Virus record (IMG/VR): IMGVR_UViG_3300007519_000061
Coordinates: 1 to 27,490 of that record
Strand: one strand, 5' to 3'
DNA from: a virus
Length of the DNA stretch: 27,490 bases
Below the pieces are notes generated by a model. The model was not told the origin of the DNA. It saw only the letters and a list, made by a program, of their open reading frames with translations, and made no database searches. Below, piece by piece: positions 5,053 through 23,567 of this stretch. The position numbers and the translations under genes are program-made. Within the stretch, counting starts at the first letter, position 1. Each line of letters opens with the position of its first letter.

Positions 5053-5216
5053 TGGCTACTTATGATGATGTCAAAAAAACTATTTTGCGTGTTGCTGGTG
5101 ATCCTGTTTCCGGTCCTGTAAAGGATTTGGCGGATGACTGGGCGCGTGCGATTGTTGCGCTCGATGCTGAGCCGGCTAAAGAAACCCGAGTGCTGAAGGC
5201 TTCTGAGAAGCGCTAG
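5052..5216 (+). CDS. Small protein between protease and capsid genes
   Basis: This 54-residue ORF overlaps the protease stop by one base (TAATG). It is hydrophilic, with an amphipathic helix (DDVKKTILRVAG) and a C-terminal PAKETRVLKASEKR. Short proteins ending in similar ETR-rich tails occur near the capsid genes of actinophages as far as I recall, with no known function. It is the last gene before a strong terminator. Confidence 0.55.
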   Translation: MATYDDVKKTILRVAGDPVSGPVKDLADDWARAIVALDAEPAKETRVLKASEKR

Positions 5217-5227
5217 AAACGGGTTCT

Positions 5228-5270
5228 CCCCCACCGCTTTATCCCTTTTGGCGGTGGGGGTTTTCTTTTT
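5228..5270 (+). terminator. Rho-independent terminator upstream of the tmRNA-like RNA
   Basis: A perfect 10-bp stem CCCCCACCGC/GCGGTGGGGG (5228-5237 and 5251-5260) with a 13-base loop is followed by TTTTCTTTTT. This is the clearest terminator in the window. It should stop transcription from the terminase-portal-protease operon before the capsid unit. Confidence 0.9.
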
Positions 5271-5284
5271 GGGATCACAAAAAG

Positions 5285-5315
5285 CTGACATAACACGACG
5301 CGCTTTTGTTATCCT
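5285..5315 (+). promoter_or_regulatory. Promoter of the tmRNA-like RNA (and probably of the capsid gene)
   Basis: A -35 CTGACA (5285-5290, one mismatch to consensus) and a -10 TATCCT (5310-5315) are separated by 19 bases. Six bases after the -10 comes G5322, the first base of the acceptor stem. That is the same spacing as at the leaderless genes of this genome, so the RNA can be made with its mature 5' end. Confidence 0.65.
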
Positions 5316-5321
5316 GGATAA

Positions 5322-5403
5322 GGGGCCGGACGGTTTCGACGGCAGATGATCCCCGCATGCGGCCGTCTGTCGGACTGGGGTTCAATTCCCCACGGCTCCA
5401 CGA
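5322..5403 (+). ncRNA. Tag-less mini-tmRNA: tRNA-like domain of ssrA with a short P2 hairpin
   Basis: The 5' end, GGGGCCGGACGGTTTCGAC (5322-5340), matches the start of actinobacterial tmRNA (GGGGCUGAACGGUUUCGAC in M. tuberculosis, from memory) at 17 of 19 bases. Acceptor stem: GGGGCCG (5322-5328) pairs with CGGCTCC (5393-5399), including G3-U70, the alanine identity pair. Discriminator A5400 is followed by CGA instead of CCA. T-arm: TGGGG/CCCCA around the 7-base loop TTCAATT (5376-5392). GGAC (5372-5375) sits before the T-arm as in tmRNA. P2: GGCAGA (5341-5346) pairs with TCTGTC (5366-5371), extendable by two pairs. In normal tmRNA about 300 bases with the tag ORF and pseudoknots lie here; this RNA has only a hairpin loop. 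There is no 5-bp anticodon stem with a 7-base loop, so it is not a tRNA. Confidence 0.85.
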
Positions 5404-5522
5404 AGCTCACCGCATGGCGCGTTTTATACTGAAGGTATCCGGTATGCGTCAACGCCCCGGTTAATGGTTTGCGTCAACGCGATCATGCTATTCATATTCA
5501 TTCAAATTAAGGAGACATTTTC
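5404..5522 (+). promoter_or_regulatory. Leader between the mini-tmRNA and the capsid gene
   Basis: These 119 bases contain no terminator, so the capsid message probably begins as an extension of the mini-tmRNA transcript. They hold a segment at 5410-5416 complementary to the P2 loop, two copies of a 15-base repeat, a 16-codon ATG ORF (5414-5464) with no ribosome site, and the strong AAGGAG (5509-5514) eight bases before the capsid ATG. Confidence 0.5.
5441..5480 (+). repeat. Direct repeat pair GGTWTGCGTCAACGC in the capsid leader
   Basis: GGTATGCGTCAACGC (5441-5455) and GGTTTGCGTCAACGC (5466-5480) match at 14 of 15 bases and start 25 bases apart. Each contains GCG-TCAA-CGC, able to form a tetraloop hairpin in RNA. 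They could be protein-binding sites on DNA or RNA acting on capsid expression. Confidence 0.7.
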
Positions 5523-6653
5523 ATGTCTGAGTTTGTTAAGCGTCAGGAAGAGCTCCGCTCAAACCTGACCATGCAGATCCGCGAAGTCATCGACGGAGCA
5601 GAATCTGAAGGCCGCGGTTTAGACCAGGCCGAGCTGACCAAAATTGACCGCATCGAGGCTGACATTGATTCCGCTTCGCGCTCCATCGAGGTTGCTTCCA
5701 AGTCCGAAGTTCGTGCTGCTGAAGTTGCTGAGGCTTCACGTAGTTTCGCTCCCGTTGAGGAATCCCGCGGCGCAGCCGATGTTTTCCGTGCAATGGCTAA
5801 GGGTGAAATCCGTGGACATGACTTCACGATGGAACAGCGTGCAACGCTCGTTCCTTCTGCGAACACTGTTCCCGTTAGCTTCCTTGACCGCGTTTACGCG
5901 CTTGCTAAACTGGTTGGCCCTTACCTGGAGACCTCTGAGGTGTTCCAGCGTGACTCTGGGAACGACCTTCGTATCCCCGTGATGACCGCTTACAGCACCG
6001 CAACGGAAACCGCTGCCGGTGGAGCAATGGATGAGTCTGAGAACACTTATGGTTCTTTGCTTCTTCAGCCAGCCAAGCAGGGCTTCATTGTGAAGCTCGC
6101 TAACGAACTGATTAGCGATGCCGGATTCGATATCGAGTCCTCTATTGCCGAGAACGCTGGTGTCGCTATCGGAACCCGCGTTAACGTCATTGTGAACGCA
6201 GCTGTCGAAGCTGTTGCTGGTGCCGGTGTAACCGCTGCCTCCGCAACGGAAATCACCACCGATGAACTGATTGAGCTTGCTTTCTCGGTTGATGGTATGG
6301 CTCGCATGCTTCCTGGTGCAGGCTTCATGGTGAGCACTGCAACTCTCGCTAAAATCCGCAAGCTTAAGGATGGTAACGGCGCTTACATTCTTGACCCCGT
6401 AGTTGGAGGCCCAGACTTGCTTCTTGGCTACCCAATCTACGAGAATCCTGCTGTGGATGCTCCTACGACTGGTAACAAGTCTGTACTGTTTGGTCACTGG
6501 CCTTCGGTAAAGATTGCAACTACTGGTTTGGAAACCTCCGTCTCGAGCGATGCTTACTTCGCTAATGACATCACCGGCTACCGCTTCACTTACCGTGTTG
6601 CTGCTGGTGTTGCGAACGGTGCAAACCACATCAAGTACCTGGCTCAGGCCTAA
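5523..6653 (+). CDS. Major capsid protein (HK97 fold)
   Basis: The 376-residue protein is of the Phage_capsid family. Residues 1 to about 100 are a charged coiled-coil scaffold (delta) region ending in FRAMAKGEIRGHDF, expected to be removed by the prohead protease. From about residue 110, VPVSFLDRVYALAKLVGPYLETSEVF starts the HK97 fold. Later parts include QPAKQGFIVKLANELISDAGFDIESSIAENAGVAIG (E-loop/P-domain junction) and LLGYPIYENPAVD. A strong AAGGAG ribosome site precedes ATG 5523. The gene sits alone between two terminators behind the mini-tmRNA promoter, unlike the usual run-on late operon. Confidence 0.95.
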   Translation: MSEFVKRQEELRSNLTMQIREVIDGAESEGRGLDQAELTKIDRIEADIDSASRSIEVASKSEVRAAEVAEASRSFAPVEESRGAADVFRAMAKGEIRGHDFTMEQRATLVPSANTVPVSFLDRVYALAKLVGPYLETSEVFQRDSGNDLRIPVMTAYSTATETAAGGAMDESENTYGSLLLQPAKQGFIVKLANELISDAGFDIESSIAENAGVAIGTRVNVIVNAAVEAVAGAGVTAASATEITTDELIELAFSVDGMARMLPGAGFMVSTATLAKIRKLKDGNGAYILDPVVGGPDLLLGYPIYENPAVDAPTTGNKSVLFGHWPSVKIATTGLETSVSSDAYFANDITGYRFTYRVAAGVANGANHIKYLAQA

Positions 6654-17245: not shown

Positions 17246-17418
17246 TGGATTTGAAGTCTGATGGGCGTGATGTGAATGTGCGGTTGCGGGATGATGTGTG
17301 GGCGATGGAGGAACCTGGCACTTTGTCTTTGACTCGGACTCAGGCTCACACGCTGCGGTTACATTTGAACGCTTGGGCGATTGCCACACAGTTCGAGGAC
17401 ATTGAGGAAGATGGCTAA
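17242..17418 (+). CDS. Hypothetical protein, 58 residues
   Basis: The ORF starts with ATGATG overlapping the previous stop. The hydrophilic sequence has a beta-like start (DVNVRLRDDVWAMEEPGTLSLT) and a C-terminal helix (TQAHTLRLHLNAWAIATQFEDIEE). No family is recognised. Its stop meets the 3' end of the minus-strand WhiB-like gene, overlapping by four bases. Confidence 0.5.
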   Translation: MMDLKSDGRDVNVRLRDDVWAMEEPGTLSLTRTQAHTLRLHLNAWAIATQFEDIEEDG

Positions 17419-17669
17419 CGCTCCGATGGGAGAGTTCCAGCCCACACCCCATAACGCTCATCTGCTTCAGTAGCGTAGGCAAAACATTGTTCCTTGATAG
17501 GGCACTGGTTGCAGAGTTTGCGGGCCACCTTGATGGCATACTCCCTGGTTTGTTTGTCAGGGAAGTCCTCGGGGAAGAACACATCAGGGCAGTCCATGCA
17601 GGGCACACCACCTGCACTGTCTATAGCGTCACGCAGTTTGTGATGTGGGGACTGTCTGTGGTTGCTCAT
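17415..17669 (-). CDS. WhiB-like iron-sulfur transcription factor
   Basis: In this 84-residue protein, Cys at 24 and 27, then Cys53-x2-Cys56-x5-Cys62 provide the four Fe-S ligands of WhiB proteins (C27 or C24 as the first), and GVWAG at 74-78 is the family turn that precedes a basic tail, here very short (TLPSER). WhiB proteins are confined to Actinobacteria and their phages. The start is ATG 17669, placed six bases after the -10 TACGAT; an in-frame codon at 17759 would extend into the promoter. Phage WhiB proteins are known to interfere with host WhiB2 in mycobacteria; that role is only possible here. Confidence 0.85.
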   Translation of the reverse strand: MSNHRQSPHHKLRDAIDSAGGVPCMDCPDVFFPEDFPDKQTREYAIKVARKLCNQCPIKEQCFAYATEADERYGVWAGTLPSER

Positions 17670-17675
17670 ACAGTT

Positions 17676-17681
17676 ATCGTA
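17676..17681 (-). promoter_or_regulatory. -10 of the leaderless WhiB-like gene
   Basis: On the minus strand TACGAT is followed by exactly six bases (AACTGT) and then the ATG, with no ribosome site. A weak -35 TTCCAA lies at 17704 to 17699. The divergent plus-strand gene starts within this region. Confidence 0.5.
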
Positions 17682-17698
17682 ACGGAGGGGAAACAGTT

Positions 17699-17893
17699 TT
17701 GGAAACAATGACAGTGGAGGGGTTAGCTGACCTAATCCTTGAAGGGTGGAATTGCGCAATGTCTGACAGTGGGTATGTGTGGGAGAAAGCTCACAGGGAA
17801 GTGACGGCAGCGGTTTCGGCCCTCGATGAGTTCACAGTAAACGCAGCCTACGAGGTTGCGAAAGGAAGGTGGGTGCGCGGTGATTACAGCTGA
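17699..17893 (+). CDS. Hypothetical protein with TTG start
   Basis: GGAGGGG lies eight bases before TTG 17699, which I take as the start (64 residues); ATG 17708 is the alternative. The protein is helical and acidic: TVEGLADLILEGWNCAMSDSGYVWEKAHREVTAAVSALDEFTVNAAYEVAKGRW. No family is recognised. It overlaps the exonuclease start by 14 bases. Confidence 0.5.
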   Translation: METMTVEGLADLILEGWNCAMSDSGYVWEKAHREVTAAVSALDEFTVNAAYEVAKGRWVRGDYS

Positions 17894-22940: not shown

Positions 22941-22970
22941 TTGGCTCCCTAGTGTCTAGTGGTATACAGT
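22941..22970 (+). promoter_or_regulatory. Promoter before the RNA ligase gene
   Basis: -35 TTGGCT (22941-22946), 18 bases, -10 TACAGT (22965-22970), then exactly six bases to the ATG at 22977. This is the best complete promoter among the leaderless starts. Confidence 0.5.
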
Positions 22971-22976
22971 GGGGTT

Positions 22977-23567
22977 ATGTGCAACACAAAAGAAGGGGAA
23001 ATGATGAAAAAAATACCAACACTGTTTGTGCGTGACCTGGAAGATAGGGCGCATGTTACTGATGAGGTCACGCCGGGGTGCGAGTGGGTGTTAGCTGGTG
23101 AGGGTGTGGCGACCCGGAAGTATGATGGCACTTGCATGATGCTCGATAACAATGGTGAGTGGTGGGCTCGCCGCGAGGTTAAGCCGGGCAAAGCTGCACC
23201 CGAGAATTATCTGGTCGATAACGTGGATGAGGTGACGGGCAAGACTCAGGGCTGGGAGCCTGTGGGGCAGAGTCCCTTTGCAAAGTTTCACGCCGAGGCG
23301 ACAGCCGGTTGGTTTGGCTGGAAAGCTGGGACTTACGAACTGGTTGGGCCAAAAGTCCAGGGCAATCCCGAAAAAGTAAAGGCTCACGAACTTATCTTGC
23401 ACGATGCTGCGGAAGTTTTGCAGATTGCGTCTTATGAGATTGGGTTTATCAAAATGTTTGTTTCCAACTTGAGCAAGAATGGCTGGGAAGGCATTGTGTG
23501 GCATCATCCTGATGGCCGTATGACGAAACTGAAGGCGCGAGACCTGAAAGGGGGACACAATGAGTGA
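22977..23567 (+). CDS. RNA ligase (nucleotidyltransferase superfamily)
   Basis: The 196-residue protein is a compact ligase of the DUF5565-like RNA ligase kind. Motif I is TRKYDGT with Lys48 as the AMP-accepting residue; GTYELVGPKVQGNPE (about 118-132) fits motif III; WEGIVWHH (about 170-177) fits motif IV; KLKARDL (184-190) fits motif V. It joins or repairs RNA ends, probably nicked tRNAs or other structured RNAs. Possible starts are ATG 22977 (leaderless promoter) and ATG 23001/23004 behind GAAGGGG. No partner kinase-phosphatase is seen. Confidence 0.8.
   Translation: MCNTKEGEMMKKIPTLFVRDLEDRAHVTDEVTPGCEWVLAGEGVATRKYDGTCMMLDNNGEWWARREVKPGKAAPENYLVDNVDEVTGKTQGWEPVGQSPFAKFHAEATAGWFGWKAGTYELVGPKVQGNPEKVKAHELILHDAAEVLQIASYEIGFIKMFVSNLSKNGWEGIVWHHPDGRMTKLKARDLKGGHNE

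Follow-up and report, generated by a model that had tools for sequence, protein, structure and literature searches.

The window, by which we mean the whole 27,490-base stretch of DNA analysed here, almost certainly carries a tag-less tmRNA at positions 5322-5403, and many other phages have miniatures of this kind, most of them without annotation, which most likely jam or bypass host ribosome rescue. Judged from its sequence, the encoded tmRNA is tag-less and capped, with 79 nt to which CCA is added. A phage tag-less tmRNA is not in itself new, the form in mycobacteriophage DS6A being already in print; new are the breadth of the group, its variable yet covarying cap, its invariant alanine identity and its cassette-like gain and loss beside a capsid gene.

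Anatomy of the window element

The tmRNA family of Rfam (RF00023) was the sole Rfam family to match the element, covering 5322-5403 at E 3.2e-26 and scoring 71.6 bits where 47 is the cut-off. This match spans the model from first to last position with 13 bases replacing 304 model positions, which bears out the initial claim of a reduced, tag-less tmRNA in a phage. A model built from the family itself (R1, described below) gave the element 88.4 bits. The mitochondrial tmRNA model (RF02544) had no match in the window at the gathering threshold, and ARAGORN, run over the whole window, called neither a tRNA nor a tmRNA gene.

The mature body runs from G1 to the discriminator A73 (5322-5400, plus strand, like all its parts), and its predicted fold comprises a 7-bp acceptor stem, a deformed D arm, a 9-bp P2, a 3-bp hairpin and a 5-bp T arm. 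The coordinates and tmRNA traits given in the preliminary description, including the signature GGTTTCGAC, can be read in the sequence as described there: the acceptor stem (5' strand 5322-5328, from Rfam match and fold; 3' strand 5393-5399, from Rfam match and covariation) has the G3-U70 pair (5324 with 5397) and A73, the deformed D arm holds GGUUUCGAC (signature UUCGAC at 5335-5340 in the Rfam match), and GGAC lies ahead of a T arm (5376-5392; Rfam match, covariation) whose loop is UUCAAUU (TTCAATT in the DNA). P2 pairs 5340-5348 with 5364-5372, as indicated by the fold and by covariation including an alignment-free test. Here the earlier account needed revision, as its P2 stem holds up (9 pairs) and its open loop of about 15 bases does not; inside that loop lies a 3-bp hairpin, CCG-CAUG-CGG (5353-5362, from the fold), where the tag and pseudoknot region would be. 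P2 is thus closed by a hairpin and does not lead to pseudoknots, and a tag reading frame, with its resume and stop codons, is missing, only 13 bases separating the modelled P2 strands; the predicted structure leaves no room for either.

Because P2 is closed in cis, assembly of a longer tagged RNA with a piece from elsewhere is disfavoured, and the same closure together with the standard gene order led us to reject one half of a permuted two-piece tmRNA. We likewise rejected an ordinary tRNA, as neither its D stem nor an anticodon arm with a 7-nt loop was found, ARAGORN called none and Rfam returned tmRNA only. Folded singly, the sequence is not significantly better than its shuffles (z -1.19; 26 of 200 shuffles fold at least as well), so that the case for the element is a comparative one.

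A covarying RNA family

Searches by blastn against phage records matched a nearly exact span of the element in Streptomyces phages Shaeky and pSt2308, both of whose copies exceed the RF00023 cut-off. A short-tmRNA pattern returned at least 120 stretches in IMG/VR (at least 96 distinct strings together with earlier loci), and a filter on acceptor and T-stem pairing leaves at least 119 viral or phage copies, at least 87 of them distinct. Applied to a set of 84,980 species, each represented by one genome, the pattern matched 89 stretches, seven above 50 bits. The totals of the two large pattern scans are lower bounds (at least 120 each). Both scans took only sequences with UUCGAC, GGAC and most of the T arm, whose conservation therefore has no weight as evidence; on the acceptor stem, P2 and hairpin they set no condition.

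Model R1, built from 28 distinct elements and carrying G3-U70, so that it leans towards that pair, separated the family widely from other RNAs: over 82 sources it gave 25 matches at E ≤2.9e-16, the next match being at E 2.1, and in larger sets members scored 51 to 94 bits and all else below 37 bits. Five pattern matches (L014, L062, L098, L105 and L116) proved to be non-members, with poor acceptor pairing and at most 27.2 bits, and one (L015) that missed the pairing filter through its register nevertheless scored 55.8 bits. Phages Theresita and LilSpotty held no member above 18 bits with R1, and GodonK and Wakanda carry longer tmRNAs, not minis. The match in Gordonia phage GodonK (L333, 104-632) is an unusually long one, 529 bases spanning an annotated tRNA-His, with no tmRNA annotation there.

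The covariance check proposed at the outset, with the Rfam tmRNA models and a model of the element's own, recovered homologues and strong covariation. Alignment A5 comprises 100 sources and 99 distinct rows; it includes five genome-contig rows (L134, L161, L173, L190, L213) and excludes near-duplicates, L030/L222, and the short or atypical forms L019, L079, L094, L104, L113, L122 and L180. Of the 2065 pair cells in its 99 distinct sequences, 97.4% are paired, and compensatory changes on both sides occur at 17 of the 21 pairs. The covariation score was 0.681, against 0.130 for shuffles and at most 0.086 for slid structures, the weakest measure being further pair types, which 11 of 500 shuffles reached. 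Since A5 is fitted to the structure, we added an alignment-free control on P2, in which 6.19 of 7 positions paired as against 3.01 (sd 0.15) with partners swapped (n=81); thinning to 55 elements left this unchanged in kind (6.16 vs 3.02). The wide score gap and the strong covariation mark the element as more than chance, and these comparisons define a structured RNA family with well over 100 distinct versions.

The cap itself varies. By a simple search, a 3-bp Watson-Crick hairpin was recognised in 84 of 99 distinct members, with stems CCG/CGG (44), CGC/GCG (10), CCA/TGG (9), CCC/GGG (8) and others, and with loops CNNG in 44, CNNGN in 10 and GNRA in 10. The remaining 15, among them the copy of Pontimonas phage phiPsal1, have no cap by this criterion, though in some of them there is a hairpin that includes a G-U pair. 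The cap therefore looks like a structural hairpin, not a fixed sequence. A CAUG or CACG loop might be taken to read start codons in the manner of an anticodon; we rejected this idea, since GNRA, CUUG, CAAG and 5-nt loops also occur in its place, a pattern that fits a stabilising hairpin.

That the element is an attachment site or the dead remnant of a tmRNA gene is very hard to credit on these data. Phages do integrate into tmRNA genes and carry their 3' part, for instance in cluster K as described in PMC10865867, but here the 5' half and the capped P2 are present and covary, not the 3' part alone, and an attachment-type control beside an integrase (in LilSpotty) reached only 17.4 bits with R1.

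Alanine identity and the 3' end

Pair 3-70 is G-U in all 99 rows of A5, while acceptor pairs 4, 5 and 6 show 5, 6 and 5 pair types respectively. Among the matches listed, 86 of the 87 distinct pattern-found copies have G3-U70; the one departure (L030) is a register error, the copy being two bases short in its 3' acceptor strand, and when aligned by the model (L222) this sequence keeps the pair. Alignments A3 to A6 held 126 distinct candidates having the D-arm signature or being one of four named phage copies, and once six non-members had been set aside (L014, L062, L093, L098, L105 and a tRNA in L341), G3-U70 and A73 were found in 120 of 120 distinct members. For tmRNA, PMC3985003 describes this G-U pair as one that is completely conserved and acts as a potent determinant for AlaRS. 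Invariance of this kind lends indirect support to the earlier proposal that the RNA can be charged with alanine, for which we regard the case as strong but indirect, and given the invariant G3-U70 selection evidently acts on charging.

In the window, C74 (5401) is followed by GA in the genome, so that the CCA of this RNA needs completing. Among the matches listed only 21 of 87 distinct copies encode CCA, and most copies, the window's included, would therefore need it added. The suggestion that the RNA is kept uncharged on purpose sits poorly with those 21 encoded ends and with an invariant alanine-identity pair.

Genomic context, gain and loss

The window is from a tailed phage, with terminase, portal, prohead protease, major capsid and tape-measure proteins, and the element sits between the protease unit and the capsid gene (5523-6653, plus strand; PF05065, phrog_10). 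Upstream, a terminator-like hairpin with a T run (5228-5265, plus strand) ends the protease unit; its inner stem (5243-5260) was called computationally, and a longer stem pairing 5228-5237 with 5251-5260 was read by eye. A -10-like box, TATCCT (5310-5315, plus strand), lies 6 nt ahead of G1 as part of a putative promoter. Of 98 distinct upstream regions, 14 have TANNNT at precisely this spacing; spacings of 7, 8 and 9 nt account for 4, 5 and 7 regions, and every other spacing for 0 to 3. From such a box transcription would begin at G1 or close to it. No promoter was found in 5150-5560 by a strict sigma-70 scan. On the 3' side of the mini, a second -10-like box, TATACT (5425-5430, plus strand), presumably serves the capsid gene, its position being conserved, by eye, with and without the mini.

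Several features around the minis were seen in passing. In the window (about 5425-5522) and in L217-L291 the capsid leader contains two direct repeats, of GTGCGTYACCGCTG and GAGCGTYACCGCC types as judged by eye, the window having GCGTCAACG twice; by eye the repeats also occur in relatives without the mini, as a separate conserved 5' leader. In L040, L054, L013 and L118 a Shine-Dalgarno-like stretch and a start codon follow within about 25 nt of the mini, and these minis would for that reason need cutting out of mRNA. The window also encodes an RNA-ligase-like protein (22959-23564; partial PF17720 match, E 1.9e-8), and pSt2308 has an annotated RNA ligase near its mini. A WhiB-like regulator (17415-17759, minus strand) suggests an actinobacterial host for the window phage.

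The nearest named relative is phiPsal1, whose capsid protein is 43.5% identical over 99% and whose element lies in the same place, between protease unit and capsid gene, with no annotation there; this phage was obtained from reads of a host culture and is no longer available, according to PMC6106888. Among 80 capsid relatives kept, 23 hold the element, 21 of them about 120 nt upstream of the capsid gene and two (L283, L287) downstream of it, with the absences not always real because some relatives end before the region (e.g. L241, L288, L290, L292, L293). Whole-record searches of 28 relatives found it in 6, one of which (the record of L277) has it at another place. Relatives with 89% capsid identity (L218-L221) have no element and retain the capsid leader. 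Elsewhere, a tRNA gene lies within 1 kb in 23 of 100 members, and the Streptomyces phage copies are located in tRNA clusters (in Shaeky and pSt2308 with no feature annotated there).

The position about 120 nt upstream of the capsid start in those 21 relatives speaks for a role in cis within the capsid mRNA, as a leader or a processing element. We think this very unlikely, given that the same leader persists where the element is missing (L218-L221), that the element can stand downstream of the capsid gene or elsewhere in the record (L283, L287; L277), and that the Streptomyces phage copies keep company with tRNAs. The earlier thought of an RNA processing signal fails likewise, the element sitting in unrelated contexts. 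Comparison of these genomes indicates that it is gained and lost like a cassette beside the capsid gene.

Carriers and proposed function

Matches spanning 80% or more of a composite query were found in 39 phage records, 38 from Streptomyces phages (some being the same phage twice, under RefSeq and GenBank numbers) plus phiPsal1, and in 38 of the 39 the matched stretch is unannotated. R1 exceeded 50 bits in 9 of 18 named phage sources, these being Streptomyces phages Shaeky, LuckySocke, pSt2308, BRock, Alone3, Riptide and CeilingFan, Pontimonas phage phiPsal1 and Stenotrophomonas virus Jojan60. Of the copies on genome contigs, L213 adjoins terminase and portal genes and L161 a head-morphogenesis gene, and the ORFs tested around L190 had no family matches. 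The contig that bears L166 is equal in length, at 130,604, to the viral contig L102. Two minis on cyanobacterial contigs (L134, 2383-2463; L173, 6776-6856) have tested neighbours that are mostly of cellular families, with one match to a PHROG of unknown function beside L134, and are possibly chromosomal copies.

Our best reading, which we put at a probability of roughly 0.5, is that the mini-tmRNA, alanylated and making use of host SmpB, competes with host tmRNA. Host AlaRS would charge it with alanine through G3-U70 and A73, and EF-Tu and host SmpB would deliver it to stalled ribosomes, whose empty A site it would enter; having no resume codon, it would be unable there to tag or release the nascent chain. 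As a competitor, it would block or dilute host trans-translation during infection. Host SmpB would be the partner because no SmpB gene was found in any of 41 carrier records. The idea already put forward that the RNA blocks or redirects host trans-translation is plausible on this analysis and agrees with published work, in which, as described in PMC4131195 and PMC11915505, a TLD-only molecule is a strong inhibitor of tmRNA that may act by titrating SmpB, and, according to PMC11915505, the DS6A form inhibits tmRNA in E. coli.

Work cited in those two papers (PMC4131195; PMC11915505) reports the inhibition whether or not the molecule can be charged, and an invariant G3-U70 counts against pure SmpB titration, since chargeability should then not matter. 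It would be accounted for, as titration does not, by the main rival, which we hold only tentatively and consider rather unlikely, namely that phages of several bacterial groups use an alanylated tag-less tmRNA as an active peptide acceptor. With SmpB, the alanylated mini would accept the nascent chain and add one alanine, release would follow via host peptidyl-tRNA hydrolase or ArfB, and ribosomes would be freed with proteins unmarked for proteolysis. Such rescue would still be usable by a phage that already has a full tmRNA, and tag-less mitochondrial tmRNAs retained with nucleus-encoded SmpB have been taken as a sign of function (PMC11915505). Against it, the sole published TLD-only test, as cited in PMC4131195 and PMC11915505, showed tmRNA inhibition, and none of the 41 carrier records was found to encode a peptidyl-tRNA hydrolase and just one an RF-1-domain protein, so that release would depend on host factors. 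Were active rescue true, stalled translation would end untagged, with ribosomes recycled and phage proteins escaping ssrA proteolysis, and tag-less trans-translation would be a viral strategy beyond simple SmpB titration.

Two observations speak against the competitor reading. A full-length, standard-form tmRNA, the only form covered, is also present in 3 of 46 carrier records, many of them fragments (CeilingFan, Riptide and the record of L016), which is odd for a tmRNA inhibitor. Moreover, the UUCGAC/GGAC signature has decayed in CeilingFan (L216, 3001-3078), Riptide (L338, 577-653) and Alone3 (L344, 587-663), while G3-U70 and the T arm are retained, as is a CCGCAYGCGG cap in Riptide and Alone3. 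The persistence of G3-U70, T arm and cap despite this decay would suit a use independent of SmpB, as a decoy of AlaRS or EF-Tu or as an alanine donor for a non-ribosomal reaction. We judge such a use improbable: the signature is intact in other members, though most were found by a pattern demanding it, and the search for SmpB, RF-1 and peptidyl-tRNA hydrolase genes revealed no dedicated partner.

If competition with host tmRNA is indeed the mode of action, many phages use an RNA to manipulate ribosome rescue, and the old question of why phages carry tmRNA becomes testable in laboratory Streptomyces phages. The minis are also natural minimal substrates for work on AlaRS and SmpB.

Comparison with known systems

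In the literature searched, which took in few subscription journals and excluded the lists of the 2025 tmRNA database, we found no description of a wider tag-less phage family. A database of 97,179 tmRNAs is reported to hold 9 "standard, no CDS" sequences (PMC11915505), among which some of the copies found here may be included. The tmRNAs of jakobid and oomycete mitochondria (RF02544) are also without a tag reading frame (PMC11915505), but they are organellar and usually have a permuted gene, whereas the window element is phage-borne, in one piece and in standard order. The CDS-less plastid tmRNA of Mallomonadaceae, about 65 bp, is likewise very short and tag-less, though it is known from two sequences of plastid genes and is likened here by the description in PMC11915505 only.

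Among phages, the permuted two-piece tmRNAs of SM1, RpAliso, vB_AbaM_3098, PHB04 and S-CRM01 are also phage-encoded tmRNA domains, but they have the permuted order and a tag piece and score at most 31.1 bits with R1. The full-length tmRNA of CeilingFan (98419-98699) has the tRNA-like domain and the Rfam family in common with the mini and, unlike it, extends to 281 bases with a tag and pseudoknot region. The closest counterpart is the "TLD only" tmRNA of DS6A (Mao et al. 2009, as described in PMC4131195 and PMC11915505). DS6A is reported to integrate at a tRNA-Lys gene (PMC10865867), and its TLD is therefore not its attachment site. Compared by description only, the DS6A form is phage-encoded, has little beyond the tRNA-like domain and lacks a tag frame, all of which holds for the window element; that form was reported from one phage, whereas the family described here spans many phages and has a covarying cap.
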